Below, one piece after another: positions 1,483 through 46,985 of a stretch of 64,000 nucleotides of DNA; position 1 is the stretch's first letter, and each line of letters opens with the position of its first letter. Source of the stretch: Choanephora cucurbitarum. Taxonomy: Eukaryota; Mucoromycota; Mucoromycetes; Mucorales; Choanephoraceae. The position numbers and the translations under genes are program-made. The stretch spans positions 1-64,000 of the forward strand of contig JAIWNI010000006.1 of the NCBI GenBank assembly GCA_025331435.1, given 5' to 3'. A model generated the notes under the pieces. It was not told the origin of the DNA. It saw only the letters and a program-made list of their open reading frames with translations, and did no database searches.

Positions 1483-1515
1483 CACCGATCAAAAAATGAC
1501 CACGTATTTACGTGC
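1483..1515 (+). repeat. Left terminal inverted repeat of outer CMC element
   Basis: Identical over 33 bp to the reverse complement of 20308-20340. It contains a near-palindrome, CACGTATTTACGTG. The first 14 bases are shared, with a one-base indel, with the ends of the inner element (9849-15764). Confidence 0.93.
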
Positions 1516-2404
1516 CAGCACACCGGTTCTGGTGTCCTCGAAACGTCCTCGAAAACACCAACGAAGGCGTTCTGGCGTGCTCCCTCGTTACACAAAAGTA
1601 GGGGTTTAAATCAAAATTTCAAGTAGAGATGACGCTTTTGGACTTATGGTGCTACTTCATTTTAAAACTCAAAACTTTTTTTTAGCCTCTAGGCCTTTTG
1701 TTTGATTGGACGTTAGATCAGGAATAATATATACAGCGGCTTATTATGATTAGATTATTGTTCTGAAAAATGTGGCTTTTATTATTTTTAAATTACTATA
1801 TTGGGATGATGACGAAATTCTATACTGGGATGCATGCCTGTAGTATGATGGCTACAGGGGGGGACCCTTTGGCTAATACATCGAACGAAGCGATCCTTAC
1901 CTTGAATTTTGCAGAGAGCCATTGAGCTAAATGTAAAGCGAGACCATAAAGGGTGCGGTAGATGAGATCTATGTAAAATTTTAGTTGAGGCTTATATAAA
2001 ATAATTACGGAACACATACCTGTGACCTTTCTAACGATCTGACTATAAGAATGTGTTAGTTCTATGAACAAGTGCCTAAATACCTTTGATAATGCATGTA
2101 TCACTTGTCTACAGTAATAGTTCGAAACCCATATATAAAGCAATGATAGCGAAAAGTTCTGAGAAACGCGTATTTTATTTTACCTACTCTTTCAGTTCAT
2201 CTTCGGCCTAGAGAGGATACATAGACCATAAAACTAATACTACGCGTGACAGAAAGTATTAGACAAAGCACTGAGAGCTTTTAAACTACTTACTTCAGAA
2301 ATAGGGACACTTATTCAAAAAAAAAAGATGAAATAAAACGGAAGGAAAAAGAAAGAAAAAGAGAAAATAGAGAAAGAAATTTTTTTTATTTTTTGTTCGT
2401 CATT
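1516..2404. other. Non-coding left arm of outer CMC element
   Basis: No supported gene. A small inverted repeat around a GGTGT/ACACC stem lies just inside the terminal repeat (about 1523-1560). The stretch before 2405 is A-rich and would be the 3' flank of the accessory gene. Confidence 0.5.
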
Positions 2405-3363
2405 TCAAAAATCAGTCAACGACATCACTCCCTGACCAGATTGATTTTCAGAAGCAACTTCATCTTCTGCCATATAGCTGATGTTGCTTTCTTGAGGTGC
2501 ACTGGAAATGCTAAAGTCATATTAAGCACATGGTTAGATCTGAAAGTTATACTAAATGTATTATTGTACTTACTTCAGCTTGGCTGGCTATTTGGGTCGA
2601 GCTTGCTGAAGCAGCTTTCTTTGGCTTGCTGTTTCTGAAGATACTGCTCAAGATAGCTCGAGCCAACCAAGAATCCATTGCCATGTGAAGAGGCAGAAGA
2701 GCGTTTGCCATGTCATCTTCATCTACATCTTCTATGCTCTTCATGACAACGAAGTCCAATTGACGAGCGTAATGATCGCTGTCTCTTTTGCTTAGCTGAC
2801 TGAAGAGAAAGTCAGTGTTCTTCTTTTGCTTGAAGTGACGGACGCAAAGACCGCGGGCCAAGAATCTAGTATTCTGGTACATCACCTCAGCCTGTTCATC
2901 CAAGGCCTCGCCAGCAAGATTCCAGTTTGTCTTACTGGTGATGTAAAGCTTGCCAACTTGTATGGCTTTGGATTTGAAGTGGCCAGAGATTGAAGAATGA
3001 TAGATTCTATCACCACGATTTTCATCGTACCATCTTTCCATAGCTGTGTCGTTCATTCTGCGGACGGTTCGGTGCAAACTTTCATAATAACGTTCTAAGG
3101 CTATATAAAGTTTCTCGTTAGAATCCCTCTATATAATAACAACTCATTAACTTACTTTGAACATCTTCGTGAAATAATCCGTTATTGTTATCATTGGATT
3201 GAGATCCGTTGCGTATTTGAAGTCTATCAAGTGACTCTTGAAGGTGGTCTACCTTTGCGAGCAACGTATGAACAAGTTGGGTGAGGTTTCTGCCATCTTC
3301 AACAGACATTGGTTGGATAGGACAAGAAGAGCTTTGAGAGATTGTGTTGTTGAAGTCGTACAT
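2405..3363 (-). CDS. Accessory protein of the outer CMC element (unknown function)
   Basis: A three-exon gene on the minus strand. Exon 1 starts at 3363 and encodes a polar N-terminus with a short predicted coiled coil (LVHTLLAKVDHLQESLDRLQ). The donor is near 3160. Exon 2 runs from about 3096 to about 2571 and holds the conserved core (RGDRIY, KTNWNLAGEAL, MYQNTRFLARG, NALLPLH, SRILSSIFRN-like). Exon 3 ends in SLTDF and a stop at 2405-2407. The core matches the protein at 13826-14794 in the inner element at roughly half the positions, including the MYQNTR and NALLPLH blocks and the xSLxDF C-terminus. I recognise no named domain. Its place opposite the transposase, conserved in both elements, suggests a DNA-binding or assembly partner like TnpA of CACTA elements; that is inference. 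No obvious break is seen in this copy. Confidence 0.72.
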
Positions 3364-4496
3364 TTTGTGATACTGATTTTCGAGGAAAAAAAAAGAGAGT
3401 TGAAGTAAAGAAGAACGACCGAAAAAAAAGCCCTTATTTATACAGATATCTTTCCATCGATTGCTGACTGACTAAGCATGAATGTCTATATCATACATGT
3501 TATTTTTAACCATGATCTAGTGAAAAGAAAATTTAAGTGTCCATTGTCTTGATCCAAACAAAGTTAAAGCTTTTACCCAAATAGGATATGATGAAGTCTT
3601 TGTAACACCCCAGTGTGACTTGAAAAACATTATTCTTATAAATAACCCCAAAAAAACGATATTATAATAAACAACTTTATTTTCCCTTTGATTTTTAAAT
3701 TTGACTCTTCTCTTAACAACTGTCTGCCCGAAGTTGTTTAGAATCCTTATTTTCACTATCAAAGAGATACCCTTAATAACTCTACCTATCTAATCGATTC
3801 CTTGAGTTATTTTAACTAAGTATCTATTTGTCTGACCCTTCGAAATATAATTATATTCGTTTACTGAAGTCGAGTGACCCTCTGAATAAAACGTCTAAAA
3901 ACATCTTGATTATCTTTGAACCCTCAAGTTCTTAAGTGATAACCATTTCTTCTGTCTCTTGTAACTTTACCGCGCTAGATCGTAAATAAGTTACTTTACT
4001 CAGGCAGATAGACCAAATCTATAAAACTTTAACAGTCCATTACGAAGTCCTTGAGCCATTACTGGTCTCTTCACTAAAACTACGTGAATTGTCACTCTCT
4101 ATAAGTCTTACGAGAATTATTTGATACGAGTGTGCTGTTGTAACAATCTACTTTACTTTTACTGAAATTAAAACAAATCAATCCCCACAAATCTTACATC
4201 ATTCTGCTTAATAACCAAATTGATTGGTGGCTTACCAACCGATTCAATCTCCATCCAGTCAATTTTGGTGCCTGTTAGCTATAAATAACTCATTAATGCA
4301 TTGCATCCGATCGCTCTTTGTACCTGAATGACAAATATGTTTAAACCATTGTGCTAATTCTGCATTGACCTTAATCAGCATTAATCTTTGGTAAAAGTGT
4401 AAATACTACACCTTGAAACAGAGTATGTTGACTTTTATTTTCTTTTTCACCAAGTTAAATTTACCTTATTTACAACTCTCTATCAAATAAAACAAA
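3364..4496. other. Divergent intergenic region of outer CMC element
   Basis: Lies between the oppositely oriented accessory and transposase genes and presumably holds both promoters. AT-rich; no coding sequence supported. Confidence 0.5.
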
Positions 4497-5942
4497 ATGG
4501 CTCCTCAACGTCCTTAACCTACAATAAATCAACGCAGACAGCAAGTTGGTCCTTTGGTGGGTTTGCAACATGCTCGGCTCTTTTAAGACAATGACGCCCT
4601 CCATCTAGAAACCTCTCCTTCCCAAGAGCCTGCTGGAAATCATCAAGACATTGATTCCGATGTTAAGTCAGTTTTGGCCGACTAGGATCCTGATGGTTTT
4701 GATGCCCAAGACTTTGACGATATCATGTCTGTTCCTGAACAAGTAGAAACTCCGGAGCCAATGGATGTTGATGACTAAGGTAATAATATTGTATAAGAAA
4801 AAGTTTGACTAATTAGCCACTAAAAGCGATTCATTTTTAGGTGAAACTGTCGATCCTTTTGACATTGACATTTCTCACAGTTCAAACCCTTTAACACCCT
4901 CCGAGATTTGTAGCATCCGCTATCTCAAGGCCTGTAAGAGAAATGGCATCAGCATCAGTACAAGCGATGAAATCAGAGATGTCTTCAATGAAGCTTTGCG
5001 CGAAACTGGCTGTATGATAATGATGAGATAGCTGTTGAAATGATGTATCTAACTAATCTTTTTAAATCTCGCACGCAAGCTTACTAGTTTGAGCACCACC
5101 GTCAATCTCATCAAGCGAGTTATACGTTTCTCTCTTGTTGTTGAGCATGAAACTTGTAAGAAGGGACGCTACCTCTTTGATGCTGACGATGATCAAGAAA
5201 TGACTCACTGTCCTGTGTGCAATGAACAGCGTAATTTTCGCAAGAGAATTTACATCAACTATGTTTCGATTGCAAAGAAAATTGCGCAACTTCTGTCAGT
5301 CGATAAAAAGCGAGATGAATTGATGTATCGTCATCAAGTGTTTGAAGACGAGCGCCTCCAAGACGATAGCGATTTGTTCGATTTGTACTGTGGCGGAGTA
5401 TACGAGCAAATGAAGCAAGATAGGGCTTTCACTCTTCCCTTAGATCAAGGTGTTCTCTTGGCTGTCGACGGATTCACTTCGCGCAAGTCGCATAAAGCCA
5501 TGATGACAATTCATGTCATCCTATTGAATTACGAACCAACGATCAGGTAAGTTGTTTGGCCTATGACACTTGAATATAAACTTACATTGCTTGTAATTAG
5601 ATTCCAAGATAAAAACATGTTCCAGGCAGCAATCCTTTGCAGTGATAACAAGCCGGACATCAGAAGCTTCTTGCTTCCTATTGTCAAGGAATTCAAGAAG
5701 TTTGGTGAAGCCCCTATGAGGGTGTTTAAGAATGGAGACGAGGTATGCCGTGCTCATATGTACTTGGTGGGCATTACTTCTGATCTGATCGAAAGTCAAA
5801 AGTTACTTGACTTTGGTGGTAAATGTTTCTTGGTAACAACTAAGCAGTTGTACTCAGGATTTCGTATAGGTCATGGTGCCTTCTATGGATGCAAGTATTG
5901 GATCAGTAAGTATTTAACTTCATGATTTTTTTGAAATATACT
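4497..5942 (+). pseudogene. Tnp2-like transposase of outer CMC element, 5' half (broken, split by retrotransposon)
   Basis: Begins MAPQR at 4497, the same start peptide as the inner homologue. The first exon has several in-frame stops (for example CCTTAA near 4517 and GACTAGGAT near 4683). Exons at about 4841-5010 and 5084-5548 encode an acidic region and a zinc-ribbon-like block (HETCKKG...CPVCNEQ), followed by the first catalytic-Asp region LAVDGFTSRKSHK. The exon at 5602-5818 carries NMFQAAILCSDNKPD, the Tnp2/Plavaka signature (LLN..P..R...EN). A short exon ends GCKYW where the inner copy has GCKYC, losing a likely zinc ligand. The donor GTAAGT at about 5907 opens the intron that received the retrotransposon. 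The gene resumes at about 17692. Confidence 0.82.
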
Positions 5943-6331
5943 TGTTGTGTCAAGTGTACAACATGACATAACTAATAAGGGTTTTTAATGATCGAGTGGA
6001 TTATTCTCTTATGACTTCAATGTCTGAGATTGGTTGGTTCACAAGGTGAATAAGTTATGGCAAGATTGCATGATTTGAATGATACGAGTTGAAATAAATG
6101 TATATGTAATCGATCGAGACTACATTATACAATACTCCTCTACAATGATGTCGTAATAATGAATATGCTTATCAACTCGAAACCCTAACAAATGAATTCT
6201 AAATAATGTCTTACCAATGCAAATCTGACGCAAGATCATTTAATATAAATGAACCTCTATCTTAAACACAATAAACAGTAACTCTTTATCTGATTATAAT
6301 TTCTATCTGCATTTTGACAGCTGACAAATCA
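5943..6331 (+). repeat. 5' LTR of Ty3/gypsy element
   Basis: 389 bp, TG...CA. Differs from the 3' LTR at three positions by my count, all transitions (AAGTT/AAATT, CGATCG/CGACCG, CTGAC/CTGAT). Preceded by ATACT. Confidence 0.95.
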
Positions 6332-6366
6332 TTTTTTAAATTCTATTATCCGGAATCACTGCAACA

Positions 6367-7290
6367 ATGTCTACCAACTCTTCTACCTCAAGTGATAACA
6401 TTAGTATCGGTGCCAATGACAACAGTGTTGATGTTACCACTCAGCAAATGAATGAAACGACCGTAGTCAAAGAAACCAATGGTAGGGACAATGACTCTTC
6501 TCCTATAATGACTGAATCCTTCAAAATTGACAAGAACCAATCTCTGGATAACGTGGTTGATTTACTTACAGCCGAACTCTCAGGAATCACTATCTTACTT
6601 ATAACTGATGACAGCAACTCTACTCACCTCAACAGCCAATATAGGGTCATCAAACAAAAACTTGAACGTGCCACAAAAGCTCAAGCAGCTATTAAAAAGG
6701 CTAAAAATGACACCATCAATGTAGTACCCCGAAACCTTCCTTTGTTTCAATGGAAAGGTGGAGTGGTACAAAACAGCAATGAAATGATTTTTAAAAATGC
6801 CAAATCTTGTATTCGAAAATTTAAAAATATTCTCCTCTCTTACGACTTGGATCCCAATCAAAACTTCAAACGACTACTGCCCTCGTGTCTCTCGGAAAAA
6901 ATGAACAACTGGTTTAGTGACTTCCTAAGCCAAAATCCAAATGCCCTTTGGGAAATGATCGCTAATGCTCTGGAAACGAAGTATGGGTTGTCTGGCGAAC
7001 AACTACAACAACTTGCTCTTAATGACCTAATGAATGTAAAAATGAAAGAAAATGAAACAATGATGCACTTTGTAGAACGATTCAACAATCTGAAGACTGA
7101 TGCCAAGGTCTCTCAAGAACCAATGCTTTGCCGGTTCTTTATTGGTGCAATGCCTACCCGACTAAATGAACTGCTATCAACTGCAAATGCCACAGCATCA
7201 AACGAAAAAAGGGACAAGATCAAGTACCTGGTGGACGACGCTTTGCGCTTGGCTGCCCTCAAGAATGTTAACTTACAAAATGATAATTAA
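6367..7290 (+). CDS. gag: Gag (capsid) of Ty3/gypsy element
   Basis: 307 residues starting 35 bp after the 5' LTR. An acidic, Asn/Ser-rich N-terminus is followed by the retrotransposon Gag core: LFQWKGG, a helical region with NWFSDFLSQNP, and MKENETMMHFVERFNNLKT, which resembles the conserved major-homology-like part of Ty3 capsids. TAA at 7288-7290 ends it, but the frame continues directly into zinc-knuckle-like Cys/His motifs and pol. The stop therefore falls exactly between capsid and nucleocapsid. Either a mutation has split a single Gag-Pol frame, or the element uses stop readthrough; the sequence alone cannot decide. Confidence 0.88.
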   Translation: MSTNSSTSSDNISIGANDNSVDVTTQQMNETTVVKETNGRDNDSSPIMTESFKIDKNQSLDNVVDLLTAELSGITILLITDDSNSTHLNSQYRVIKQKLERATKAQAAIKKAKNDTINVVPRNLPLFQWKGGVVQNSNEMIFKNAKSCIRKFKNILLSYDLDPNQNFKRLLPSCLSEKMNNWFSDFLSQNPNALWEMIANALETKYGLSGEQLQQLALNDLMNVKMKENETMMHFVERFNNLKTDAKVSQEPMLCRFFIGAMPTRLNELLSTANATASNEKRDKIKYLVDDALRLAALKNVNLQNDN

Positions 7291-7365
7291 ACTACTCGCC
7301 TTAGGTCTAGCCGACCTATTGAAGAGGTAAAACGTCCTAGGTTATTTTGCAAAAACCACCCAAAA

Positions 7366-9848
7366 ATGAACAATCACTCTACTGCCGAATGCCAATACAA
7401 GGGAACCGAACCTCCCCTGATCTACTCCAATGTTACCAAAAATGGGCTATGTTACGACTGCCACCAGATATGGACAAAAGACCATCGCTGCAAAAACAAA
7501 ATGAACAAAAATGATAAACGCTCCACAATCGTGCCTACCAAGGTGGACATTGATTCATCCGAAGATGAAAATGATCTCAAATTCAATGCCATGGATAAAA
7601 TGAAAATGAAGCAGGATTGTAAGTATAAAATTGATGATTTTTCCAAACCTCCGAATGACTTGCTAAGCAAAAAATCTATACATCTTCCTTTAAGTATAGA
7701 AAATGTCAAGACCTTTGCTCTTCTAGAAACTGGTTCTACCTTCTCAATGATCTCGCCTAGTTCAACTAGTTTTCTATATGTTTCTATAATAAATGATAAT
7801 GATAATGATAAAAATTTTATAATGCTGGGAAAATCAGATTTAAAAGTAAAAAGAACGGGCAAGACAAAAGAAAAAATGGAAATATTTTATAATGATATCG
7901 AAGTTTATGTCAGACTTGAAATATTTGATATTAATGATGTTCACGTCATCATTGGAATGGACTTAATGAAATCTCTTGGAATTAATGTAACTGGTTTAGC
8001 TTATGACTGGGATACTCCTAATCATGATATTATTCCTGATCCAATTGATCCAAATGCATACAAACCTAATGAATCACTTTATGGTACAAATGAAGAACGG
8101 AAAAAAATGACTAAAGCACTTCAACCTTACATCAATGCCAATGCTAGTCTTGATCCTCGTGGTCATTGTACTTTACCTGGTAGTAAGATCTACTTACCTT
8201 TGAAACCAGGTGTGAAGAAAACATATCTTCGTCAATATGAAATTGCAAACGATCACCTTAATGCTGCCAGAGAACAGTTTAAAAAATGGAAGGAACACAA
8301 TGTCATTGAAGTTGCCGAACCAAATACCGCCTTCAACAGTAGCCTGCTGGTAGTCAAAAAGAAAAATGCTCAAGGAGAATACACTAGTGACATTCGAGTG
8401 GTAATCTATTGTCGTATGATCAACGCTCTGTTGGATAAGTCGAGGTTAGATTCTCTCCCTCTACCTCTCATTTCAGACATCCATAGAAAAATGGGACAAT
8501 GCGAACTGTTTACAACGACTGATTTATCTCAAGCTTTTCATAGCTTCAAAATCAAGAAAAGAATTGATCGACAACCTACCTCTTTCACCTTTGAAAATGT
8601 CCAGTATCCTTTTAGAAAAGCCCCTTTTGTATTAATACCCATTAGTAGTGTGGTCCAACGAACTCTAACGAATCTCTTTGCGGATCTGTCATATGTAACG
8701 GTTTTTGTTGACGACATTTCTGTAGCTACAAATGATGATATGGAATATCATACATTTTGTGTTAAAGAAGTATTGAAACGATTAACAAATGCTCATCTGC
8801 GCATCAATGTTAACAAGCTACACTTAGCTCAAACGTGTGTCTACATATTGGGTTTCTGTCTATCAGGTAAAGATGGACTCATGGTAGATCAAAGAAAGAT
8901 ATCCAATACTCTGGGTTGGCCCCTAGTACCTAAAAATGCTCGCGAGTTATCTTCTCAATTGGGTGTTGCCAACTTTTTTCGTGCGCATATTCCATGTTAC
9001 TCAACCTTAACGGCTCGCTTAGATAAGCTGAGAAACTCAAAGGATTTGCAAAAGGATTGGACAAATGATCATACAAATGACCTACGCAAATTGCAGTATG
9101 CACTTGTTAATGCCCCTGTACTGTCTTGCCCAGACTTCAGGTATGAATTCAATGTTGTAACGGATAGCTCTGCTTATGGAATAGGTGGTGCTTTATATCA
9201 AGTAATAGATCGAAAGATCCATTATATTGGTTTCATAGCCCGACGCCTCCAACTATCTGAGCAGAAATGGGGATTGTCTCGACGAGAGTTAACTGCTGTT
9301 GCCTTTGCTTTTGTACGCTGGCGAGCGATCTTAAAGGGTACGCGATTCAACTTGTTTGTTGACAATCATGCTCTTCTATTCTTGAAAACAAAGGAAAAGT
9401 TAAATAATGCTATCTTGAATGTTTATGAAACGATTTATGAAATGGATTTTATGATTACTTTCTGTCGAGGTATAAAGAATATACTGGCAGACTCGTTATC
9501 TCGCATGTTTGTGCCTACAATGCCCAAAATGCTGGAGGGGGGTGAAAACGCCTCTCATCAAAAGAAACGCAAGCATGAAAAAGATAACAAAAGGATAACA
9601 AAACGGAGAAAAACAAATAGAAATGAAATGGAAAATGAAGAGAGAATTAAGAATAAAAATAACTCAATGTGTAATGATAAAAATGAAAAGAAATGTAACA
9701 ATGAAACAAAGGAAAATGATGCAATGAACAAAAAGGAAAATGAGAATGATGTCCCTGTAATGAGAGCTAGCCATTTGAGCAGCCTAAGAGTACCAAATGA
9801 AGATGAACAAAAGGAAATATTACTAAAATGCCACTTACTTGGTCACTA
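7366..9848 (+). CDS. pol: Pol (nucleocapsid-like, protease, RT, RNase H, start of integrase), cut by the inner CMC insertion
   Basis: Same frame as gag; the open frame actually starts right after the TAA at 7288. A zinc-knuckle-like motif (CYDCHQIWTKDHRC) is followed by an aspartic-protease block reading LLETGSTFS, where the catalytic Asp of the usual DTG/DSG is Glu. Reverse transcriptase is clear: TTDLSQAFHSF and FVDDISV (usual YVDD), though the usual DYR.LN block reads IYCRMIN. RNase H follows with VTDSSAYGIGGAL and the LSRRELTAVAFA block. A Lys/Asn-rich linker of about 85 residues (9540-9760) resembles a nuclear-localisation stretch. The integrase HHCC zinc finger begins (CHLLGH) and is cut after 9848. 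Reading from 9848 into 15767 restores GHYGIHAMEKM in frame. Confidence 0.92.
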
Positions 9849-10224
9849 CACCGATCAAAAAAACCGAATGCATTTCAATTTCAGAACTCATTTTACGTTT
9901 TATACACCGTCATTCCGTATTTGAACGCTAAAAAAACGTATTTCGTGACCACTTTCGAATGAAAAAATGTGAAGTTGCTATTTAAGGCTGAAATAATGTT
10001 TATTAGAAAAAAATCACTTTTTTGTGAGGTTCAGTGTAACCACTTTTGCCACATCCACGCTCAGCTAAACAGCTTACAAGCGCTTATGGACCTCAAAGAA
10101 TTTTTTTTCTAACTTGCTTTAAAAAATCTACTCTTGATGTAGGACAATGTTACGTATTTGGAAGAAGGTAAATAAATTAAACAAATTTTATTGGAGATTC
10201 TATGAGGCTGAATTTTTTTGGGTT
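9849..10224. other. Left non-coding arm of inner CMC element
   Basis: Terminal repeat, then AT-rich sequence that forms the 3' flank of the transposase. An open frame continues from pol into the element as far as 9924, but this is only run-on. Confidence 0.6.
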
Positions 10225-13200
10225 TTATACTGGAAACAAATTTGCAACTTCGCCAGCTGTTTCATGCATATCTAAAGGGAAGACAGAGGTGTTGCGAATG
10301 ACTTTGTACCAAGGAGAAAGTTGATAGTTACTGGCACTTTGAATACTTTTGACCTCTTGTAGCAAGCTAACAGGAGAGATCAGGTCAGAAGCATCAAAGG
10401 CCACATACTTTTTGGTCTCTTTCACTCTTGGCACGTTGGTGATTGTTGATTCTCTACACCCTTCGTATATCTCTCCTAATACCAAGTGTGTAGGTAGGCC
10501 AGACTCGGAAGTGTCCACCAAGAAATCGAAAAAACAAAGGATCTTGCAAACATACCAGACGGATTTGAGCTTGCTAAAATTTGTATGGATAACGATTAAA
10601 ACCGATTTTGTAATCATCCACTCAAGACTTACTTGTTTTTGCACATTTTGTTTGCCTGGAACAGAGCATAATAGCCGTCCTTGTTGGTTTGTTTGCATCT
10701 ATCAATGTGCAGAGAAGAATAGTAGACAACATCGTCTTTCCAGAGCTTCCCTGCAATCGTCATGTTGTAGTCCAGTTGCCTTTGTTCCATAATTACATTT
10801 TTGGTGCTCTGAATGCGACCCATGAGCTGATAGATCGCATAACCCAACTGTCGAATGTTGAAGCCACCCTCAATGACTTGCTCTTTGTTCGCTTGTTTAA
10901 GGCTGATAGGTGAAGGCGAAGCCAGAAAGGGGGCCCAAAGTTGTGGAAGTGAAGCATCCTGGGGGTGGTCTTTGTAGGTGGTGTCTTCCTTTTTCTTCCC
11001 AAGGTCGAAGTTGACAATACCGGAAAAATCCAAGTAGTCCAGAAGAGCACCTACTTCCAGGATGTTGTTGTTGTTTGCGGCCACGTTGTAAGATGCCTTC
11101 ATTGTGCGTTTCAAGATTCCAATCGATCTTTCCATTGAACGCGCACTTGTTGAAGACATGGGGCCGAAATGGCGGATATAGTCACCGACATGTGAAAGGA
11201 GATGCATATTAATGCGGTAAACTGTCAAAGAGATGGTCTTGCGTGCAATACACTCATCGAGGTAGGAGAACCATTTCTTGAAGCATCTGAAATTGATTAA
11301 AAAGACGTAAGTAATGATAGTATTCTGTCAAAACAAATTTAAACTTACTTTTCCATTTCACGAATGTCTTCTTTGCTCAGGTGTCTTTGCAGCATTATGG
11401 TAATACCACGGATGACAGCACTCAGAGCTTTTGCGGCAGGTGGTTGTAGGTAAGGTGCCAGCAAAGTATGGAAAGTGTGGCGAACTATATCCAACCAACA
11501 AACAGAGCGGTACGCACTCAACTTGGAGTTTGTACAAGGGTTGTAAGGATTCCAGCTACCAGCGAAGTGTTGAGAGATATGCCTTTTGGACAGTTGTAAG
11601 GACTTATAAATCTTTTCACCAGCATCAACTGGCAACTGGAATGGGTACCTGGACTTGTTGTCGGTATGCTTGTACTTGTCATTGAGTTGTGGAGAAAGCA
11701 TCTCATAGAGGAGCTTGGCAATGTTAGAGCCGAGATGCATTTCATCCAAAGCAACAAAGAAGGGTGACTTGAAGTTTGGGAGATCCCCAAAAACGGAACG
11801 AGATTTGACTCCATGGTTATCATCCTATAAAGGTAGAGTTAATAAAGTCTTCAATAACTTCTCGAACGTTACTAACTTCTTCAAGTAACAGGCTGGCAGC
11901 AGTTCTGTATGGTTGGTTTCGAGTGGGGAAGTACATTCCCGACTTCTTTGGCTCATCGCTGCGTTTCCCTTGTGCTATCATAAAAAGTAAGATATTATTC
12001 ATTGAATTACACGATTTTAGTTTCACTTACTTGTGCAATACTTGCAGCCATAGTATGCACCATGCCCTACATCAAACAATTAGTAATGTCATTCAGCCAG
12101 GTTTTATGCAATACCTACCACCAAAATCAAGCAGCTTTTGGCTCTCAATCAAATCAGAAGTAACTCCCATCAAATGCATATGAGCTTGGCATACTTCTTT
12201 TCCGTTCTTTAAAACCTTCATTGGTGTGCTGCTAAACTTCTTAAATTCTTTGACAATCGGAAGAAGAAAGCTTTTCAAGTCAGGCTTATTGTCGCTACAA
12301 AGAATGGCAGCTTGGAACATGTTTTTTTCCTGGAATCTAGAATCATAAAGGTAAGATTACTGACACGTTTATACAAACATAATTGATCTACCTTATAGTT
12401 GGTTCGTAGTTGAGTAAGATGACGTGAATAATCATCATAGACTTGCTTGATTTCTTGGAGGTGAAACCATCTACGGCCAACAGTACACCTTGGTCTAAAG
12501 GGAGAGTGAACATCCGCTCTTGCTTCATTTGTTCATACACTCCACCGCAGTAGATGTCGAAGAGATCGCTGTTGTCTTGGAGTCGCTCTTCCTCGAAAGC
12601 ACGGTGTCGATACATCAACTCCTCACGTTTCTGATCAACAGAAAGGAGTTGTGCAATCTTCTTGGCAACAGAAACATACTTGATATATGTTGGCTTTCTG
12701 AGGTTGCGTTCTTCTTTGCACACAGGACAGTGCAACATCTCCTTGTCCTCATCAACATCATACAAGTAACAGCCCTTCTTGCAAGTCTCATGCTCTACAA
12801 TGGGCGAGAAGGAGATCACACGCTTGATCAGAGCAATAGTTGATGTCAAACTGGATACTTTTTGGCTTGGATCCTTCGTAGTGACTATAAAGGTAGGTTA
12901 GTTACGCCGCAGGTTTTATTTCTTATCAAATCGTATATCTTACCGCCATTCTGGTACAGTAGGTCATTGACATACTCTCTGACATGATCACTAACACCAG
13001 TGCTCAAGCCATCTGACTTGGAGAGCTCAAGAAAGCGAATGTCATTGATTTCTGCTGGCGTGAAAGGATTTGAGCTAACATTGATGTTGATGTTGTAAGG
13101 ATCATTCTCATCAAACGAAACTTCATCTATCGAGGAACACAAGCATCAACGATATATTCAGTTAAGTATGGTCAACTTCAGCTGCTTACCTCCTTCATCT

Positions 13201-13471
13201 AAATCCATAGGTTCCATGAAATCAATGTCATCAGGGAAAGAGAAATCCTCATCAATGGCTTGCATTTCAATACCAATGGGATCCCATTCACCCAGAACTG
13301 ACTCAATGTCAGATTCTTCCTGCTCTTCAGCTAGAAAGGTCTCTTCAAAGAGAGAGTATTCCACTTGATCGTGTACTTCTTTTGAAGAAGTCTTGCACGC
13401 TCTCTAGTCATCAAAGGTCCTATTTCATTTCTGCGCTGCTTTCTAGAAATATGAGTTCTTTGAGGAGCCAT
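10225..13471 (-). CDS. Tnp2/Plavaka-like transposase of the inner CMC element
   Basis: A multi-exon gene on the minus strand with about nine short introns. Going 5' to 3': MAPQRTH at 13471; an acidic exon (about 13364-13187); an exon at about 13127-12953; a zinc-ribbon-like region with HETCKKG and CPVCKEER, then LAVDGFTSKKS, the first DDE Asp region (12890-12391); NMFQAAILCSDNKPD and GVTSDLIESQKLLDFGG (about 12331-12120); GCKYC; then ALDEMHLGSNIAKLLYEM, LSAYRSVCWLDIVRH (11822-11348); HLLSHVGDYIRHFGPMSS (from 11287); and a C-terminal exon ending NLFPV. It matches the outer copy exon by exon. The only break I see is a one-base frame mismatch near 13380-13400 between the MAPQR start and the acidic exon. 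That is either a frameshift or a sign that the true start is downstream or in an unseen 5' exon. Confidence 0.85.
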
Positions 13472-13825
13472 TTTAAATTGAATATAAACTTTGGTTTTTA
13501 AGGTAAGTACGGATAGGTTTTTAAGAATAAGGTGATAGAAAAGCGTTTCTTGCTGTCGACTGCGAAGCTATTTATAAGGTCGCTTCGGCTAAATATATTG
13601 GAAGGTTTATAAGAAGTACTATACGTTCCTGATGTAAAAACTTTTTGATCCAATCATTTGGAATCAAATCGGAGTTACTGAATGCAAAGGAAATGAGTAT
13701 GTTGGTATGTTTCAGTGACAATGGTATCACTAATGTTTAAGATGTTTAAGATGCTTAAAAATTTTTAAATAAATTAGCAACCTGATCATTTTTATGGCTT
13801 TTTATTTTGTATTAAAATAGTAAAA
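13472..13825. promoter_or_regulatory. Bidirectional promoter region of inner CMC element
   Basis: 354 bp separate the divergent transposase and accessory starts, so both promoters must lie here. AT-rich with short repeats of GATGTTTAAGATG near 13730-13760. No defined motif could be assigned. Confidence 0.4.
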
Positions 13826-14794
13826 ATGGATAGTCCATCTTCTCAAAACTCATTCACTGCTAACCAAAGCTCAATGCGTGATGAAGGTCGTCATACAGAT
13901 GACTTATTGAGAAGTCTGTTTGCAGAAATGCAAGAAATGCGGCAGGCTATGAACCGAATGAACAAAGATTGTACCTGTAACGGCCATCAAAGAAGAAACA
14001 GGGCAATTGATTTTGAAACAAGCAGTAAGATCGTAGTTTAGAAATTGGTACTCTTTATTGAATTGTATTCTATTTTAACATAGATGCCTATGACCAAACT
14101 CTATTTGAAGATGTTAGTAGAAGGAACAAACGAGACTTTCAGGCATGGTTCAATGATACCCGTGGTAACAGAATTTATTCAACCATTAAAACGGGCTCTT
14201 TCAAGCAGAAAGCTATGCATGTAGCAAAGCGCTACATAGACGAGAAGACATCTTGGAATCTTACTGGACAGGCTTTAGAAGATCAAGCAAACAGAATGTA
14301 TCAAAACACCCGATATATTGCTCATGGTTTTTGCAGTCGCCATTTCCCAGGAAAGAAAGGAACAGGCTTCTTCCTCGGGAAACAGGCCATAGATCAGATT
14401 TTGCTCTATGCTACCATGTTTGATTATATTATTTGGAGGATCAGTGACCGCATGAATCCTAATGATCGTGATAATGCTTTGCTTCCTTTGCATCTGATAG
14501 AGAATTCTTGGCTCTCCCGTGCAATCTTATGCAGCATTTTTAGGAACGCTAACCCAAGAAAAAAGCAATGTGCAAGAAGGGTAAGCTTATCAGTATCAAT
14601 CCTTTATAGTCTTGCTAATTTCATATTTTTAGGCATCAATTAACTCTGATGAGGCTCTTCAAGAAGTTGCTGAAAGTGTTGCCCCCGTCGCTGCTACACC
14701 AGAAAATGCTGAAGATGTATCAGAGAGTATTTCTTCTTTGGATGATGGATCTGCTAACGGTGGTTGGTCTCTGGCTGACTTTATGAGTCAATAA
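13826..14794 (+). CDS. Accessory protein of the inner CMC element (unknown function)
   Basis: Three exons: 13826 to about 14024; about 14083 to 14580 (GTAAGC donor); and about 14633 to 14794. A polar N-terminus with a short coiled coil (LLRSLFAEMQEMRQAMNRM) is followed by a core RGNRIY, KTSWNLTGQAL, MYQNTRYIAHGF, NALLPLH and SRAILCSIFRN. An acidic tail ends WSLADFMSQ. The core and the C-terminal SLxDF match the outer element's accessory protein (2405-3363) with the same exon pattern. No family recognised. Conservation of both the protein and its head-to-head position suggests a functional partner of the transposase. Appears intact. Confidence 0.78.
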
Positions 14795-15764
14795 AAAGAC
14801 AATAAATTTTTTCTTCTTCTATTTTCTTTCTCTTCTCTTTCACTTTTATTTTAAAGTATTTTTTTTGTATGTAATAGTATTTGATATCTTTCTTTGTAAG
14901 TATACATATTTCTTTTGTGATTGTTTCACGGGCTAAATCTCTAAGTTTGTAGTTGAAATATCAGATGAAGAGCTCCATGATACACCAAATGATGTAATGA
15001 TATGAAGTTAGATAAGAGAGGTAGGAAGCAAAAACTAATATTATACTGAGCTCTTTATTAACTTGTTATGATATTAATTAGTAGTCGATATGTCGATGAA
15101 TGATAGACCATACTAGAGGCCAAGTGCCTTAGATGCCTCATTGCATTGCTTGTAGCTTATATGGTATCGATCACATCAGGTAAATAATATCAAACGTATT
15201 TCTAAGGCATCTTACTGACTACTATTTGATAGATTCAAGTATTCTTTTTGTTACACTTGACAAGCCGTATCATACGTACGCTCACAAGGTTTCACTGGGT
15301 AACTGCAAGACCATCTAAGCATCTGAAGCTCTAGACCTTGCTGTAATCAATCCTACCCCGTTTTCAGACCGTAGCAGCAACGCATTTGCTGTATAGCCTC
15401 CCTATACCATCTATATATAGCATTTTTTTAAATAAAAGCCACTATTTTTAAACAATAATCCAATCATTTGATACCATTAAACCCAATTGTAAAGAGCTAT
15501 AGTCCAATCATCGGAACCATGAACCAAATGATTCTTAAAAACTGATCCAATAAACGAAGCAATATAAAAAGTATCCATCCCAGAATACTGTAACACGAAG
15601 ATGTCCTAAAACGTTTGCGGTGTTATAATCTAACATTAATACTCCTTTTGTACTACTCGAAAGATGTGTCAAATGCAACTTTACTACGAGCTTTAAGGCG
15701 TAAGTGAAAATGCACTTTAGACACGTTCTCAGATGCATTTACATCCAGATTTTTTGATCGGGTG
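14795..15764. other. Right non-coding arm of inner CMC element
   Basis: No gene supported. The accessory gene's 3' flank has an early AATAAA at 14800. The end is the inverted terminal repeat at about 15750-15764. Confidence 0.55.
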
Positions 15765-15766
15765 TA

Positions 15767-17054
15767 TGGTATACATGCAATGGAAAAAATGATACACCAA
15801 GATTACAATGTACATTGGCCTGGTCTTAGAAAAGACATAATGAGCTTCATCGCTAAATGTAATGACTGTAGACAGTTCAACTTAGGTAAACATGTCTATC
15901 ATCCACCTAAAAGCATTGCACCTGATGGTGTATGGGATCATATCGTATTCGATCTAAGTACTTTCAATGTAACATCTAAAAATGTTAACAACTTTATACT
16001 AGTGGTGGTAGATCTATTCTCTCGCTTTACCATATTAAGATCACTAAAGAATAAAACGACTGTGACAGTAACAAAGGAATTAGAGTTTCTATTTTCACTA
16101 ATGGGCTATCCTAAAATAATCTCACATGATAATGGAAGGGAATTTAGCAACAAGTTGTTGCAAAGTATTATTGAACAATGCGTTATCGATGAATGATTGT
16201 CTTTACCATTTAACCCACTGGGAAATAGTGCAAACGAAGCCTTTGTAGGATTAGCTAAACAAACATTTGTAAAGCGATTACAAGGAAAAGAAGATTTATG
16301 GGACCTATACTTAAATTCTACAATGTATGCAAGGAATCTAAAATACTCAAGATTACATCTATCAAAACCGTTTAATGTAATGTTCCATCGTAAGCCTAAT
16401 GATTTACAGGACTATTCCAAATTGGAACCTGTACCTCATGATAAAATGATAAATGTAAAAGCACTTCATGAAAAGCTTACAAATGTGGACAATATTATAA
16501 TACCGGCTATCAAGGAACAAATACAAAAGACTCAAACGGCTGACAATGAATACTTTGAACGAAAACATCGGATACTTAAGAAACCATTCCCGATTGGTTC
16601 CTTTGTAATGATTAAGTCTGTCGAAAAGAAGAACTTGGCCAAATACGAACCTAAATATGAGAGACCTTTCCAAATACATGGCTATACTGACAATGGCAGC
16701 TATATACTCACAGATCGAACTAATGCTCTACTAACGAGGGATATACCCACATCCCATATCAAGCTCATTGAAGATGATGATGCTGTAAACGAAGGCGAGC
16801 ACTATGAAGTGGAAGCTATAATCGATCATAGAGGAAATAAGCCTAACTACGAATACAAAGTGCGGTGGAAAGGGTACACTAGAAACGACGATACTTGGGA
16901 AAAGGCTGAGAACTTCGACTCCTATGAGCCTATCAGGCAATATTGGGCTAGAAGAAATTTAAATGGTAAACATAGAAAACGACTACCTAAAACGATTGAC
17001 AAACGGAAAGTTCAAAACCGAAATGAAAAACGAAGAATGAGATCGCGTACCTGA
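15767..17054 (+). pseudogene. pol: Pol, continued: integrase and chromodomain of the Ty3/gypsy element
   Basis: Continues the integrase after the inner insertion. The zinc finger finishes with AKCNDC. The catalytic core shows Asp in WDHIVFDLSTFN, Asp in IISHDNGREF, and Glu in NSANEAF, the DDE set. TGA at 16194-16196 lies between the second and third catalytic blocks and splits the integrase. A GPY/F-like block (YERPFQIHGYTDNGSY) follows, then a chromodomain (about 16797-16950) with YEVEAIIDHR, YKVRWKGYTRNDDTWE and IRQYW. The aromatic and acidic positions fit methyl-lysine-binding chromodomains. The tail is Lys/Arg-rich. Confidence 0.9.
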
Positions 17055-17283
17055 AGGGTAAAGTAGTGATGTACCTTTTTCCCTTATTTTTTCCTCCAAT
17101 TGAGGTTTTTTAGGGTTTTAATGGCCATCATGAAGATCAATGAAATATTACTGTTACTATTTTTTGAAGGTTTGTCACCTTTGGTGTCAAAGTACAAATG
17201 CAATGATAAACTGTGTCCAATGTATATATCAATTAGTTATGTCGAATGACCCTCTCCGTATGTTCCATACTGCCCAGGGGTAA
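17055..17283. other. 3' untranslated part of the Ty3 element before the 3' LTR
   Basis: No coding. A weak polypurine stretch (CAGGGGTAA) directly precedes the 3' LTR and is the only candidate plus-strand primer. Confidence 0.5.
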
Positions 17284-17672
17284 TGTTGTGTCAAGTGTAC
17301 AACATGACATAACTAATAAGGGTTTTTAATGATCGAGTGGATTATTCTCTTATGACTTCAATGTCTGAGATTGGTTGGTTCACAAGGTGAATAAATTATG
17401 GCAAGATTGCATGATTTGAATGATACGAGTTGAAATAAATGTATATGTAATCGACCGAGACTACATTATACAATACTCCTCTACAATGATGTCGTAATAA
17501 TGAATATGCTTATCAACTCGAAACCCTAACAAATGAATTCTAAATAATGTCTTACCAATGCAAATCTGACGCAAGATCATTTAATATAAATGAACCTCTA
17601 TCTTAAACACAATAAACAGTAACTCTTTATCTGATTATAATTTCTATCTGCATTTTGACAGCTGATAAATCA
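17284..17672 (+). repeat. 3' LTR of Ty3/gypsy element
   Basis: 389 bp, TG...CA, followed by the target duplication ATACT (17673-17677). Three transitions separate it from the 5' LTR. Confidence 0.95.
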
Positions 17673-19899
17673 ATACTAACTTGATTGATAGCATTTGGCA
17701 AACACCCTGACGAACCTGGCAAGAATGGGATGTACTATCCTTGGCGCGACCAGCCTATCAGAACGATGGCTAACTTGATGCTTGAAGATGAAGGTGTAAG
17801 TACCAACTAAACTGATTGCTATGAATTATAATAATAACCTTGTCGATAGGATTCAGTCACTACCATTCAATATGGTATCAAATCCAAATCCATCTTTGCT
17901 GATCTTCGTAACTTCAGATCTCCTTTTTTTGTTGCTCTCGATGAGTTTCATCTTGGTTCCAACATCGCCAAACTTGTGTATGAAATGCTCTCCTCCGAGT
18001 TCAATGACAAGTACAAGCATGTCAACAACAAAATCAACTACCCTTTCCAACTGCCAGCTAATGCAGGCGAGAAGATCTATAGGTCCTTGCAACTGTCCAA
18101 AAGGCACATCTCTCAGCACTTTACTGGTAGTTGGAAGCCATACAACCCTTGCGCAAAGTCCAAGTTGAGTGTATACCGTTCTGTTTGCTGGCTAGATGTA
18201 CTTCGGTACACTTTCCACACATTACTGACTCCTCACTTGTGTCCTCCTGCTGCTGCTGCTCTGAACAATGTTGTCTGTGGTATCACCTTGATGCTTCAAC
18301 GACATTTGAGCTCTGAAGATATATGTGAGATGGAAAAGTAAGTATCCTGTTCTATTTGAATAACATGTCAATACTCATATAATCCCTTTATATTTGATAA
18401 CGAAATAGGCATTTTAAGAAGTGGTTCTCTTACCTCGATGAGTGCATTGCACGCAAGACAATCTCTCTGACAGTGTACCGCATCAACATGCACCTCCTCC
18501 CACATGTAGGCAATTACATCCGTTACTTTGGCCCCATGTCTCAACAAGTGCGCGTTCAATGGAAAGATCAATTGGAATCTTGAAACGTACGATGAAGGCA
18601 TTTAACAACGTGGCCGCTAACAACAACAACATTCTTGAAGTGGATGCTCTGTTGGATTATCTTGAGTTCTCTGGTAGTGTCAACTTTGACTTCAAACCTC
18701 AAAAGGAAGACACAACATACAAAGATCACCCTCAAGACCCGACTTACCCTCAACTCTGGGCTTCCCTTCTTGAACAGCAACGTCAGCCTTGCCAACAAGA
18801 ATAAGTCTGAATGCATCAAAAATACATTCAGCATCGGCCAACTTGGTGTTGCCCTCTTCCACCTGCTGACTAGGGTAACTGGCAACAGAAATGTGGGTAT
18901 TTCTGAACGCCAAAGGTAGTACAACATGACGATTGCTTCAAAGCTTTGGAAGGATGATGTAGTTTACTACTCATCTTTGTATAAAAACTTGGAATCGCAG
19001 ACTGAAAAGTCCGGCTACTACGCGATGTTTCCATGTCAATGAAATGAACAAACAAAAGTAAGTTTTTTTTTGTAGTAACGGTATTGAGTGATGGTACTGA
19101 CTTTAATACAATTATGGTTTTTGGTAAGCTGCACACTGTATGGTTTGTCTGTAAAATTCTCTCCTTCTTTGACTTCCTTGTTGATGATTCTGAAACCGGA
19201 CAGCCTACGCATCTCGTCTTGGGTGAAGTGTTTGAGGGTGCTAGTGACAAGCATGCTTTGAATGTGCAAGGGTCAAAGAGACCATTTTTTCCAACCGAAA
19301 GTTTGTGTAGCAAGACTCTATGTATTTATTGATTCATTACCATATTAGTACCTTCATACCTTTCTTACTTTGGCCTATCATATCAGTTCAACCATTATTG
19401 AGTCATATATCATTCTGGATATCAACTTGCATACCAGTGAATATAGAACCGCTAGATAAGCTGAACATGATAGAAATATTCTAGATACTTTTAAAAGTAC
19501 AGCAGAGAAATAGGAATGATAGTTTATTCTACAATCACCAATAAATTAAGGTTAACTATTCTGTCGGAAAATTACTGTTCACTATAATTCAGGAACGTAA
19601 CAAAACCATATAAATAGTGATAGATCATTAGTATAGAAAAGAATTTAGACTAATCCTCAATAAAGACGAATATAGTCGACTCCTCTTGTTTTTTTTATCT
19701 TTTTTTATTACAGTTTGTTGCCTTTGATGCTTCTGACCTCATCTCTCCTGTTAGCTTGCTACAAGAAGTAACGAGTATTCAAAGTGCCAGCAACTTTCAG
19801 GTCTCTCCTTGGTACAAAGTAATTCGCAAGGGTCCCCTCTTTCCCAACAACATTCACAAAACTGCTGGAATTGTTGGAAACTTGTTTTCTCACTTGTAA
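17673..19899 (+). pseudogene. Tnp2-like transposase of outer CMC element, 3' half (frameshifted, cut by solo LTR)
   Basis: Resumes inside the intron (TACTAAC branch site at 17674-17680, acceptor near 17691) and reads FGKHPDEPGKNGMYYPW. Exon at about 17851-18338 carries ALDEFHLGSNIAKLVYEM and LSVYRSVCWLDVLRY; the next, from about 18409, carries HLLPHVGNYIRYFGPMS. Compared with the inner copy there is a one-base deletion near 18540 (CATGTCTCAAC versus CATGTCTTCAAC), a TAG at about 18918 (QR-stop-YNMT), a further stop near 19039, and another frame break near 19271. The solo LTR at 19306-19712 then interrupts it. The last piece (19713-19899) reads FVAFDASDLISPVSLL and ends NLFSHL. Clearly dead. 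Confidence 0.85.
19306..19712. mobile_element. Solo LTR inserted in the outer transposase
   Basis: A 407-bp segment starting TGTAGCAAG and ending TTTATTACA, flanked by GTTTG on both sides (19301-19305 and 19713-19717). It interrupts coding sequence: removing it and one GTTTG gives KETIFSNRKFVAFDASD, which matches the inner homologue's continuous KETKKYVAFDASD. TG...CA ends and a 5-bp duplication fit an LTR left by recombination between two LTRs. It is unrelated to the 389-bp LTRs of the neighbouring Ty3 element. Confidence 0.8.
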
Positions 19900-20307
19900 A
19901 AGCTTTTTTTTTCGTATTTTTTTTTGTCTTGTCTTTTTTTTGTTATTTTTCTAACACCGTTCTTTTTCCTCGTCCAATAAAATCTAAAATTTGATTTGTC
20001 TTAAGAATAACGTTTTATTTTCTATTCAAAAATGGAAGCACCGTACTACAATGAAAGAAATAAATTTTAAAGTAAGCCGATATTGTAGACATTCAACTTT
20101 TTAAGCCTGCAAGAGCAAGTCGACGGACATCGAATCATAAAAATTCGTATCACCACTCTGCTCAAAAAGGAAGAAAAGTGTCCAAAATGCGTTTTTTTGG
20201 TCAAAAATAGTAATCGCACATTTATTCCTCCAAAAAGCTGTCACCCAAACTGCCTTTTTAGGATTTTTGGGCGGATAAAGGTTTACGAGGACGTCCAATC
20301 TGTTCTA
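19900..20307. other. Right non-coding arm of outer CMC element
   Basis: T-rich 3' flank of the transposase followed by AT-rich sequence up to the terminal repeat. No gene seen. Confidence 0.55.
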
Positions 20308-20340
20308 GCACGTAAATACGTGGTCATTTTTTGATCGGTG
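20308..20340 (-). repeat. Right terminal inverted repeat of outer CMC element
   Basis: Exact inverted partner of 1483-1515; similarity stops immediately inside this block. Confidence 0.93.
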
Positions 20341-44948: not shown

Positions 44949-46985
44949 ATGAAGTCAATCATCTTTGCCTCAGTTGCATTAGTTGCTGCCGCAAGCGCAC
45001 AAGGATTCCCTAACACCAATGCACAAATGCGTAAGTAGAACAGCAGATAAGAGATGACTGAGATTGGTATGATTTATTGTATTTTTTTTATTGTAGCCCG
45101 TTCATGTCAAAATGGCTTGTACTTCATCCCTCCTAGATTCGTGTCTCAAGACAGAGCTGCTCAAGTTTGTAGTGCTTTTGGAGGTCGTTTGGTTGATGTT
45201 TCAAACAGCAACTTCCTTCAGCTCACAACTTTGGCATCTACCTGTTTAGGTCCTCAATCTCGTGCTTGGATTAGGTACTTTTTTTTCTTGAATATTGAAT
45301 ACCAATTTTTTTTCTAAATTCAATCGATCCATAGAACTTGGGATGGAAACAACTACAACTCTAACTGCTTAGCTATTTACACTGGTGTCGGCTACCCAGG
45401 AGGTGCTATCAACTTGGATTGTGTTGGCCAAAACTTCAACCCTCCTATTTGTATGCGTACTGGCGGTATCCCTCCTATTGTATACCCTAACCCTATCCCT
45501 ACCATTGTTGCTCCTACCACTACTTCTACTACTGTCCCCACTACTAGAGTAGTCACATCTACCAAAGTTGTTACATCCACCAGCGTTGTCTCTTCCTCTT
45601 CTGCTACTACTACTACTACTACAACACCTGCCGCCCCCAATGCTGCTCAAGCCAGTCTTTTGGGCCTTGCAGCTGATCTCTCCGATGTTGCTGCTGGTGT
45701 TTCATCATCTGCCTCAGAAGCTTCTTTAATTGCATCCAATTTGTCCTTGTTTGCTATCGAATTGACTGATGCTCCCGCTTCTACAGTCACTGTTACAGTT
45801 ACTCCCACAGTCACTCCCGTTGCCCCTCCCCCTCAATCTAGCCTTGCAAGCTTAGCCTCTGAACTCTCAGAAGTTGCCTCTGGTATCTCTCTTTCTGCTA
45901 TTGAGGCTTCTTTGATTGCATCAGAAATTTCAGAAATTGCAGAAGACCTTCCTGCTACTGTTGTTGCTACTGTTGTTGCTCCCTTCATTCCTCCTGCTGC
46001 TGCACGTGTAGCTGCTATTGATCCTGCCAGCGTTGTTATTGCTCCTGCTGCTCCTGTGGCCCTCGCTGCTGCTGTGCCTGATTCTCAAGCTAGCCTTCTT
46101 GGCCTCGCTGCCGAACTTTCAGATGTTGTATCTGGTGTTTCTAACTCTGCTGCACATGCTTCTTCCATTGCATCCGACGTCTCTGTAATCGCTGCTGATT
46201 TGACTGTTACTCCAACCATCACTATCACCACCACTTCTTCCACCACTTCTTCCACCACTTCTTCCACCACTTCTTCCACCACTTCTTCCACCACTTCTTC
46301 CACCACTTCTTCCACCACTTCTTCCACCACTTCTTCCACCACTTCTTCCACCACTTCTTCCACCACTTCTTCCACCACTTCTTCCACCACTACCTCTAAT
46401 GCTGCCCAATCTAGTATTGCAAGCTTAGCCTCTGAACTCTCAGATGTTGCTTCTGGTATCTCTGCCTCTGCAGCTGAGGCTTCTTTGATCGCATCATCAC
46501 TCTCTGAGGCTGCTTCTGGTATCGCCGCTCCTGCTCCTACAACTGTTACTGTTGTACCAGAACCAACCACTGTCACTGCTGTACCAGAACCAACCACTGT
46601 CACTGCTGTACCAGAACCAACCACTGATACCATTGTTGATCCTATTCTCACTCTCCCAACAGCTATCACTCTCCCAACAGCTATCACTCTCCCATCAATT
46701 CCCATTCTCCCATCAATTCCTCTTCTCCCAACAGAGATCACTCTCCCATCAATTCCTCTTCTCCCAACAGAGATCACTCTCCCATCAATTCCTATTCTCC
46801 CATCAATTCCCATTCTCCCATCGATTCCTATTCTCCCATCGATTCCTATTCTCCCATCAATTCCTATTTTCGGTATCCCAGCAGTTACCCCTTTACCTGT
46901 CAACCCCACATCCGACCTTATCATCACTGAAACATTGCCTAACAGCAGCGATGTTACTCTTACTGTAGTTGAGACCATTATCTAA
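44949..46985 (+). CDS. Secreted C-type-lectin-like protein with Ser/Thr-rich repeats
   Basis: Three exons (44949-45030, 45097-45274, 45335-46985). An N-terminal signal peptide (MKSIIFASVALVAAASA) is followed by a Cys-containing domain of about 100 residues (SCQNGLYFIP, RAAQVCSAFGGRLVDVS, AWIRTWDGNNYNSNCLAI) that resembles a C-type-lectin-like fold. The remainder is low complexity: four copies of a 34-residue helical module (ASLLGLAADLSDVAAGVSSS type) at about 45640-45770, 45830-45960, 46080-46200 and 46405-46520; about 13 SSTT tetrapeptides (46229-46390); three PEPTTVTA units; and a stretch of LPSIPI-type repeats (46650-46866). It probably forms a cell-wall or extracellular stalk. No clear GPI signal is seen at the end. 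Ligand unknown. Confidence 0.8.
46229..46390 (+). repeat. 12-bp minisatellite (SSTT)n
   Basis: About 13 near-perfect copies of ACTTCTTCCACC, preserving frame inside the secreted repeat protein. Confidence 0.92.
46650..46866 (+). repeat. Imperfect 15- and 18-bp repeats encoding LPSIPI/LPTEIT units
   Basis: Variants of CTCCCATCAATTCCTATT are repeated in frame with a higher-order block around LPTEITLPSIPL. Length polymorphism between strains is likely. Confidence 0.85.

Follow-up and report, generated by a model that had tools for sequence, protein, structure and literature searches.

The window, a stretch of 64,000 nucleotides at the start of contig C314 in the 33.4-Mb assembly of the Mucorales mould Choanephora cucurbitarum that served as the searched genome, contains two nested transposons of the CMC/EnSpm type (Table 1). 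The terminal inverted repeats of the outer element, which begin with CACCGATCAAAAAATGACCACGTATTTACGTG, occupy positions 1483-1522 and 20301-20340 and are 95% complementary, while the dinucleotides on either side of the element differ (TA and AG). The direct repeats of the gypsy-like retrotransposon (5943-6242 and 17284-17583) measure at least 300 nt and are 99% identical. The inner element has one extra G at its right end and is flanked by TA on both sides; near-identical copies are present at C339 (flanks CA/CA) and C209 (flanks AT/AT). Elsewhere in the window, two adjoining ORFs at 240-983, reading GDKFCGFRSAAHAIYG and onward, presumably resemble the decayed remains of an OTU-type cysteine protease from a further element, and a Pfam search of these ORFs gave no significant match. 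The interval 45001-47000 has a GC content of 0.46 and a GC skew of -0.37, the remaining 2-kb steps away from it having GC contents of 0.34-0.42.

Table 1. Coordinates of the elements, genes and candidate sites in the window
Feature	Position	Strand	Description
Outer CMC/EnSpm-type element	1483..20340		Holds later insertions; 40-nt terminal inverted repeats
Palindrome-like CCACGTATTTACGTG	1500..1514		Within the outer terminal inverted repeat, centred some 25 bp in from the element end; candidate site for binding
Outer accessory gene	2405..3363	-	Coiled coil in exon 1 (3363-3156), core in exon 2 (from 3100 to about 2574); the SLTDF tail in exon 3, splice site uncertain; exon modelling, genome search, donor scan
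Outer transposase, 5' part	4497..5925	+	Head to head with the accessory gene; tblastn of inner exons, DNA similarity
Gypsy-like LTR retrotransposon	5943..17583	+	Sits in the outer transposase, splitting the gene
Inner CMC/EnSpm-type element	9849..15764		Within the LTR element; ends CACCGATC..GATCGGGTG
Inner transposase	10228..13471	-	Multi-exon; weak Transposase_21 match
Inner accessory gene	13826..14794	+	Exons 13826-14024, 14084-14580, 14633-14794; 285 aa; exon modelling
Palindrome-like GATGCATTTACATCC	15732..15746		Right end of the inner element, counterpart of the outer palindrome; candidate site
Outer transposase, 3' part	17670..19890	+	Displaced by the LTR element; tblastn 17670-17789, 17871-18338, 18407-19030, 19120-19278, 19711-19887

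Each element carries a gene for an accessory protein, and exon modelling and tblastn confirmed the positions, the strands and the head-to-head orientation to the transposase region that the original prediction had given for both genes. The start codons of the divergent genes are 354 bp apart in the inner element and 1133 bp apart in the outer. The inner gene has the three clean exons that had been proposed, with introns bounded by GTAAGA/ACATAG and GTAAGC/TTTTAG, and the NCBI predicted protein EDC96DRAFT_578479 (P0001, Choanephora cucurbitarum) is the same as its product over 285 residues, except at residue 125 (N to D). In the outer gene, the first intron is equally clean (GTAAGT donor, CTAAC branch-like site and ATATAG acceptor), but the proposed third exon stands less firmly: the strong donor GTAAGT gives no in-frame join to the tail ending in SLTDF, and the sole in-frame GT-AG solution uses a weak donor. 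The same exon-3 frames recur in C97, a close copy of the outer accessory. The two proteins match each other far above chance in the whole-genome search (E = 3e-44), their exon-2 products are 42-44% identical, and the blocks MYQNTR, NALLPLH and SLxDF reported for them are indeed common to both.

The inner transposase matches Transposase_21 (tnp2) with 18.1 bits (E = 0.0016), below the cut-off of 28.6. CMC/EnSpm transposases are characterised by a DDE triad together with motifs of the C(2)C and H(3-4)H types; a CKYC motif and candidate residues were spotted by eye only. At 13158-13471, the start of inner transposase exon 1 and the remainder of that exon lie in different frames, and in tblastn the C339 and C209 copies are split likewise. 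The outer transposase has decayed, with a stop at codon 7 behind the start-like ATG at 4497. Its 5' part is similar to inner transposase exon 1 at the DNA level (4494-4559) and matches the inner transposase exons with 45-81% identity in tblastn at 4852-5019, 5071-5547 and 5599-5823. None of the 7996 candidates scored in a protein-database search with the transposase reached E<=0.001; annotated proteomes often omit transposon genes.

The pairing is much wider than the window. Genome searches, which used single proteins and hence give lower bounds, located at least 56 accessory places in four homologous groups (A-D) and at least 40 in a fifth group, E. Groups A and B together account for 18 matches at 17 places, group C for two, group D for 45 matches at 37 places, and group E for 52 matches at 40 places. 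Profile comparison places A/B and C together at E=4.5e-9 and joins A/B/C to D at E=9.6e-5 across 128 columns, a score equalled by none of 60 column shuffles; with smaller alignments, A/B against D reached only E=0.0028 and a probability of 11%. D matches E at the border of significance (P=0.034, equalled in 1 of 40 shuffles), and A/B/C does not match E significantly (P=0.3, 12 of 40 shuffles). Group E is therefore treated as an analogue, and judging from these profiles it is perhaps merely analogous to A-D. A donor-like hexamer follows the conserved tryptophan on its 3' side at 69-93 nt in four group A copies, at 54-63 nt in seven group D copies and at 50 nt in group E. The group B copy C310 has such hexamers at 52 and 99 nt and C28 (B) has none, and C140 (C) has one only, at 33 nt. 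In the protein database, the inner protein had two matches and the A/B/C profile eight, the four with a named source all being from Choanephora. Besides P0001, the database members found were P0002-P0008 only; P0002, which has a tail of other origin, was omitted from the A4 and A8 alignments.

Some of these copies have an unusual form. C291 (L024:854-2979) is a 2126-bp element with both CACCGATC termini, accessory remains and no detected transposase, and the same combination of CACCGATC termini and accessory remains with no transposase detected is seen at C236 (L025:3918 onward) and C294 (L031:502 onward). A solo group B accessory at C310 (L030:6942-7798) has an open core frame and 7 kb upstream without a transposase match; it is possibly domesticated, and is absent from the NCBI proteins found. 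Another solo gene with an open core frame lies at C59:7196. Group E forms head-to-tail arrays, namely C340:88306-101061 (L067), with three units 5143-5144 bp apart, and C203:557-11499, with a unit spacing of 5.1-5.2 kb. The spacer between the CACTG-like ends in these arrays would be 227 bp, with flanks that do not match. Such arrays are unusual for a cut-and-paste transposon and may be an assembly effect.

Where a transposase exon was found close by (within 4 kb for groups A-D or 5 kb for group E), the nearest one formed a divergent pair with the accessory in 47 of 49 cases: 6/6 in A/B, 2/2 in C, 16/17 in D and 23/24 in E. Extension of the range to 10 kb gave 17/21 for D and 6/7 for A/B; the exception in A/B is the outer gene, for which the closest exon on the list is one of the inner element. 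Other exons revealed three further divergent pairs, at the outer gene, C28 and C65. The transposases paired with group E match Transposase_21 above the cut-off (33-43 bits), save C324 at 18.6 bits, and those paired with group D score 23.6-30.3 bits, with one (C269) above the cut-off; the group A transposase exon is 25-31% identical to the group D partner transposases. The expectation that homologues always lie next to Tnp2-like transposases was thus upheld for the layout when an exon is close, but not for every copy. No listed transposase exon was in range at 10 of the 17 A/B places (including C28 and one of the two C65 places), 16 of the 37 D places and 16 of the 40 E places, and no accessory was listed within 5 kb at 39 of the 73 Transposase_21 places. 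At C48, C308 and C226, LTR-element sequence occupies the expected position of the partner, and C151, C140:18880 and C133:19422 reach contig ends. No partner was seen in the 3.1 kb examined at C73, where there is a Tc1-like ORF, or upstream of C97:5764. At C223, about 1.85 kb upstream contains no companion ORF of more than 100 aa; together with the 39 places, this suggests that such a transposase may do without an accessory. Since the copies share ancestry, the counts are not independent events, and the independent evidence is the layout kept by lineages at 24-45% identity.

Selection on the accessory was assessed by pairwise Nei-Gojobori dN/dS on exon 2, for pairs of at least 38% identity and at least 90 codons. 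The broken or partial A copies (L020, L024, L025, L027, L028, L029, L032, L033 and the A copy in L031) and the D copies L062 and L066 were omitted. The computable pairs range from 0 to 0.57, which agrees with the proposal that the gene is kept by selection. The ratio is 0.15 for the outer gene and C97, 0.13 for C28 and C310 (dS 1.75), 0.07-0.29 in seven group D pairs and 0.35-0.57 in three young ones, and 0 for C140 and C190, with 2 synonymous changes; more distant pairs are saturated. The inner, C339 and C209 accessories are separated by 1-5 replacement changes, with none synonymous, and so yield no ratio. In group E, the frames are open in 10/10 copies at 99-100% identity and in 7/7 at 49-50%, and most copies at 55-94% identity contain stops. 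By these codon comparisons, the accessory is under purifying selection in several diverged lineages.

These data bear on the idea that the accessory stems from one capture of a host gene and is a passenger with no function. The accessory-only copies, such as the C291 element bounded by terminal inverted repeats and the solo genes C310 and C59:7196, are what such a passenger might leave behind. However, the dN/dS is below 1 in every pair with a ratio, and the recurrence of groups A-E and of the divergent layout throughout the genome is at odds with one capture event: a single recent capture is refuted, and a functionless passenger is highly improbable. Identity between the inner and outer elements amounts to 44% in accessory exon 2 (dN 0.48), as against 76% in the transposase exon (dN 0.15). 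The accessory diverges faster than the transposase.

The N-terminus of the accessory is heptad-rich, and its profile matches GCN4 coiled-coil chains (best E=7e-4), in support of the coiled coil that had been noticed there; the heptad scores of hand-picked stretches in nine copies were equalled by 1 to 148 of 2000 shuffles. The core carries a net charge of +10 (pI 9.7) in group A, +13 in D and +4 in E, the whole group E protein being at -2 and not basic, and the group A proteins end in an acidic tail (-11) with the SLxDF block. The impression that the protein belongs to no assignable family was borne out, as the searches gave no known domain family, coiled coils apart. Only chance matches were obtained from Pfam (6 A-C, 11 D and 6 E sequences), with no DNA-binding domain recognised, from NCBIfam (7 proteins) and, coiled coils apart, from PDB profile searches with A-C, D and E. 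Neither Pfam nor NCBIfam gave an enzymatic domain, and no Myb match was listed in the Pfam searches of A-E members. The C-terminal tryptophan helix might resemble BEN domains, a likeness that we do not claim; a search with BEN PF10523 matched nothing in the genome nor in any control genome and is uninformative, and hmmscan of the members listed no BEN. Structure prediction, which had been suggested as a check, returned all-helical but unreliable AlphaFold models from A4 (9 rows, pLDDT 55) and A8 (6 rows, pLDDT 52), and Foldseek found no match to the first model in the PDB at E<=0.001.

A coiled coil and the frequent co-occurrence with the transposase could also be expected if the accessory served the transposase as a subunit for structure or nuclear import and had no specific DNA binding of its own; the Myb-like partner of Harbinger transposases acts in nuclear import. 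A basic core, as in groups A and D, that diverges faster than the catalytic part is, however, more expected of a specificity factor, and we regard such a subunit as rather improbable.

The ends of the elements combine a common terminus with variable sequences beside it. The terminus CACCGATCAAAAA is common to the outer element, C339, C209, C97, C291, the inner element (with one extra base at the right end) and seven short elements. These ends are of the CAC..GTG type that marks CMC/EnSpm (CACTA) transposons, CACCGATC..GATCGGTG in the outer element, C339, C209, C97, C291 and the seven short derivatives, with GATCGGGTG at the inner right end. The 2-bp flanks match, as do the target-site duplications of 2-3 bp made by such transposons, in 10 of the 13 copies with both ends seen, namely the seven short derivatives, C339, C209 and the inner element, and do not match in the outer element, C97 and C291. 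The short derivatives (L042-L048) are non-coding elements of 1265-1272 bp that have both outer-family ends and occur in two orientations.

Beside this terminus, group A-type ends contain a palindrome-like sequence centred 24.5-28 bp from the terminus at six ends, which differs between ends at a fixed place beside the common 13-bp terminus. In a joint test of the six distinct ends, which are partly related and for which the inner right end was taken from C339/C209, the palindromes summed to a score of 35, where shuffles averaged 26.3 (p=2e-4), and other positions on the same ends scored 23-30; inner_L, inner_R and C294_L reach no more than 5 of 8. Taken end by end the palindromes are weak, as the 7-of-8 ends were reached by 9-25 of 300 shuffles and the others by 101-169. 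In the group E element, an 11-bp motif, picked after the repeats were seen, has 23 matches with at most 2 mismatches, against 6.25 expected and a maximum of 13 in 200 shuffles. Sixteen of the 23 lie at 2794-3525, in the stretch from the 3' end of the accessory to the transposase that follows, and the motif is forward in 9/9 matches on one side and reverse in 5/7 on the other side of putative CACTG/CAGTG-like ends, which are deduced from one inverted repeat and have flanks that do not match. Another group E inverted repeat, first read as a terminus, falls in transposase coding sequence and was rejected.

The status of the accessory as a partner of the transposase is well supported by these genomic comparisons. 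Its role in transposition is inferred from the protein architecture, the charge, the evolution rate and the patterns near the element ends. We consider that these CMC/EnSpm transposons probably, with considerable room for doubt, work with two proteins, and that the accessory is the second one encoded by the element, a dimer that binds specifically the ends of its own element as partner of the transposase. End binding, to which we are led by inference, is the most likely mechanism. The coiled coil would make the accessory a dimer, and the core would bind a family-specific site near the ends, that is, the palindrome about 25 bp from each terminus in group A and the repeated 11-bp motif in group E. 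Once bound, the dimer would bring the transposase to the terminal sequence that the ends have in common; it may also regulate the promoter region that separates both genes. The accessory would work like TnpA of maize En/Spm, which dimerises; homology to TnpA is not claimed.

A different role would be that of a regulator or anti-silencing factor, which controls the common promoter region or counters host silencing and is unneeded for end synapsis. The 354 bp and 1133 bp between the divergent starts suggest a single control region, the fast evolution fits an arms race, and TET/JBP genes in other fungal transposons are thought to counter silencing (PMC12730594). However, no enzymatic domain was found, and family-specific end motifs coexist with the accessory; we regard a purely regulatory function as unlikely. 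Regulation and end binding are not exclusive, because maize TnpA does both jobs.

With TnpA of En/Spm and TNP1 of Tam1, the accessory shares the condition of a second element-encoded protein in a CAC-ended transposon of the Tnp2 type with element-specific sequences near the ends. The comparison is one of descriptions, and accessory groups A-E have no Pfam match above chance. Plant TnpA is a splice product of the transposase unit, whereas the Choanephora accessory is a separate gene on the opposite strand. Plant TnpA binds subterminal repeats and is needed for transposition; in Choanephora, the repeats and palindromes are present as candidate sites. According to PMC2613891, plant TNPA recognises subterminal repeats, and TNPA and TNP1 share little similarity. 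SmTRC-PrA, likewise compared by description, is a non-transposase protein of the CACTA-like element SmTRC1 of Schistosoma; its authors propose a TNPA role for it (PMC1636069). Unlike the separate accessory gene, it comes from alternatively spliced transcripts, and according to its authors it resembles no protein of any other animal or fungal element. Basidiomycota and Ascomycota have EnSpm, ESTA and Plavaka elements that bear TET/JBP genes; these, too, are fungal CMCT transposons with an extra gene (PMC12730594), but that gene encodes a dioxygenase, and no such domain was found in the Choanephora accessory. PMC12730594 gives Plavaka termini as TGT..ACA or CATCA..TGATG, which differ from the Choanephora CACC..GGTG. 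Harbinger and Nuwa elements also combine a transposase with a separate partner protein, which carries a Myb/SANT domain (PMC12730594) that was not found in the accessory. For Mucorales, PMC7928374 only counts EnSpm copies. In the literature on second proteins of fungal and CACTA-type elements, BEN domains and Choanephora transposons that was searched, no description of the accessory protein was found, and we claim absence from print no further.

CMC elements are widespread eukaryotic DNA transposons. To our knowledge, little is known outside plants on whether CMC transposases need a partner. In the present genome, several diverged pairs of transposase and partner are available, each with end sequences to match. 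As a tentative and rather doubtful extension, several CMC lineages in this one fungus may have an old two-subunit design in common, in which catalysis (the conserved transposase and the common 13-bp terminus) and end specificity (the fast-evolving dimeric partner and the family-specific palindrome or repeats) would be split over two divergent genes, and the partner would represent a new protein superfamily with group E as its most diverged branch. If this were true, a swap of the partner would re-address the transposase. The group E family of ten near-identical copies has open partner genes, and the separability of specificity and catalysis is directly testable by binding assays.
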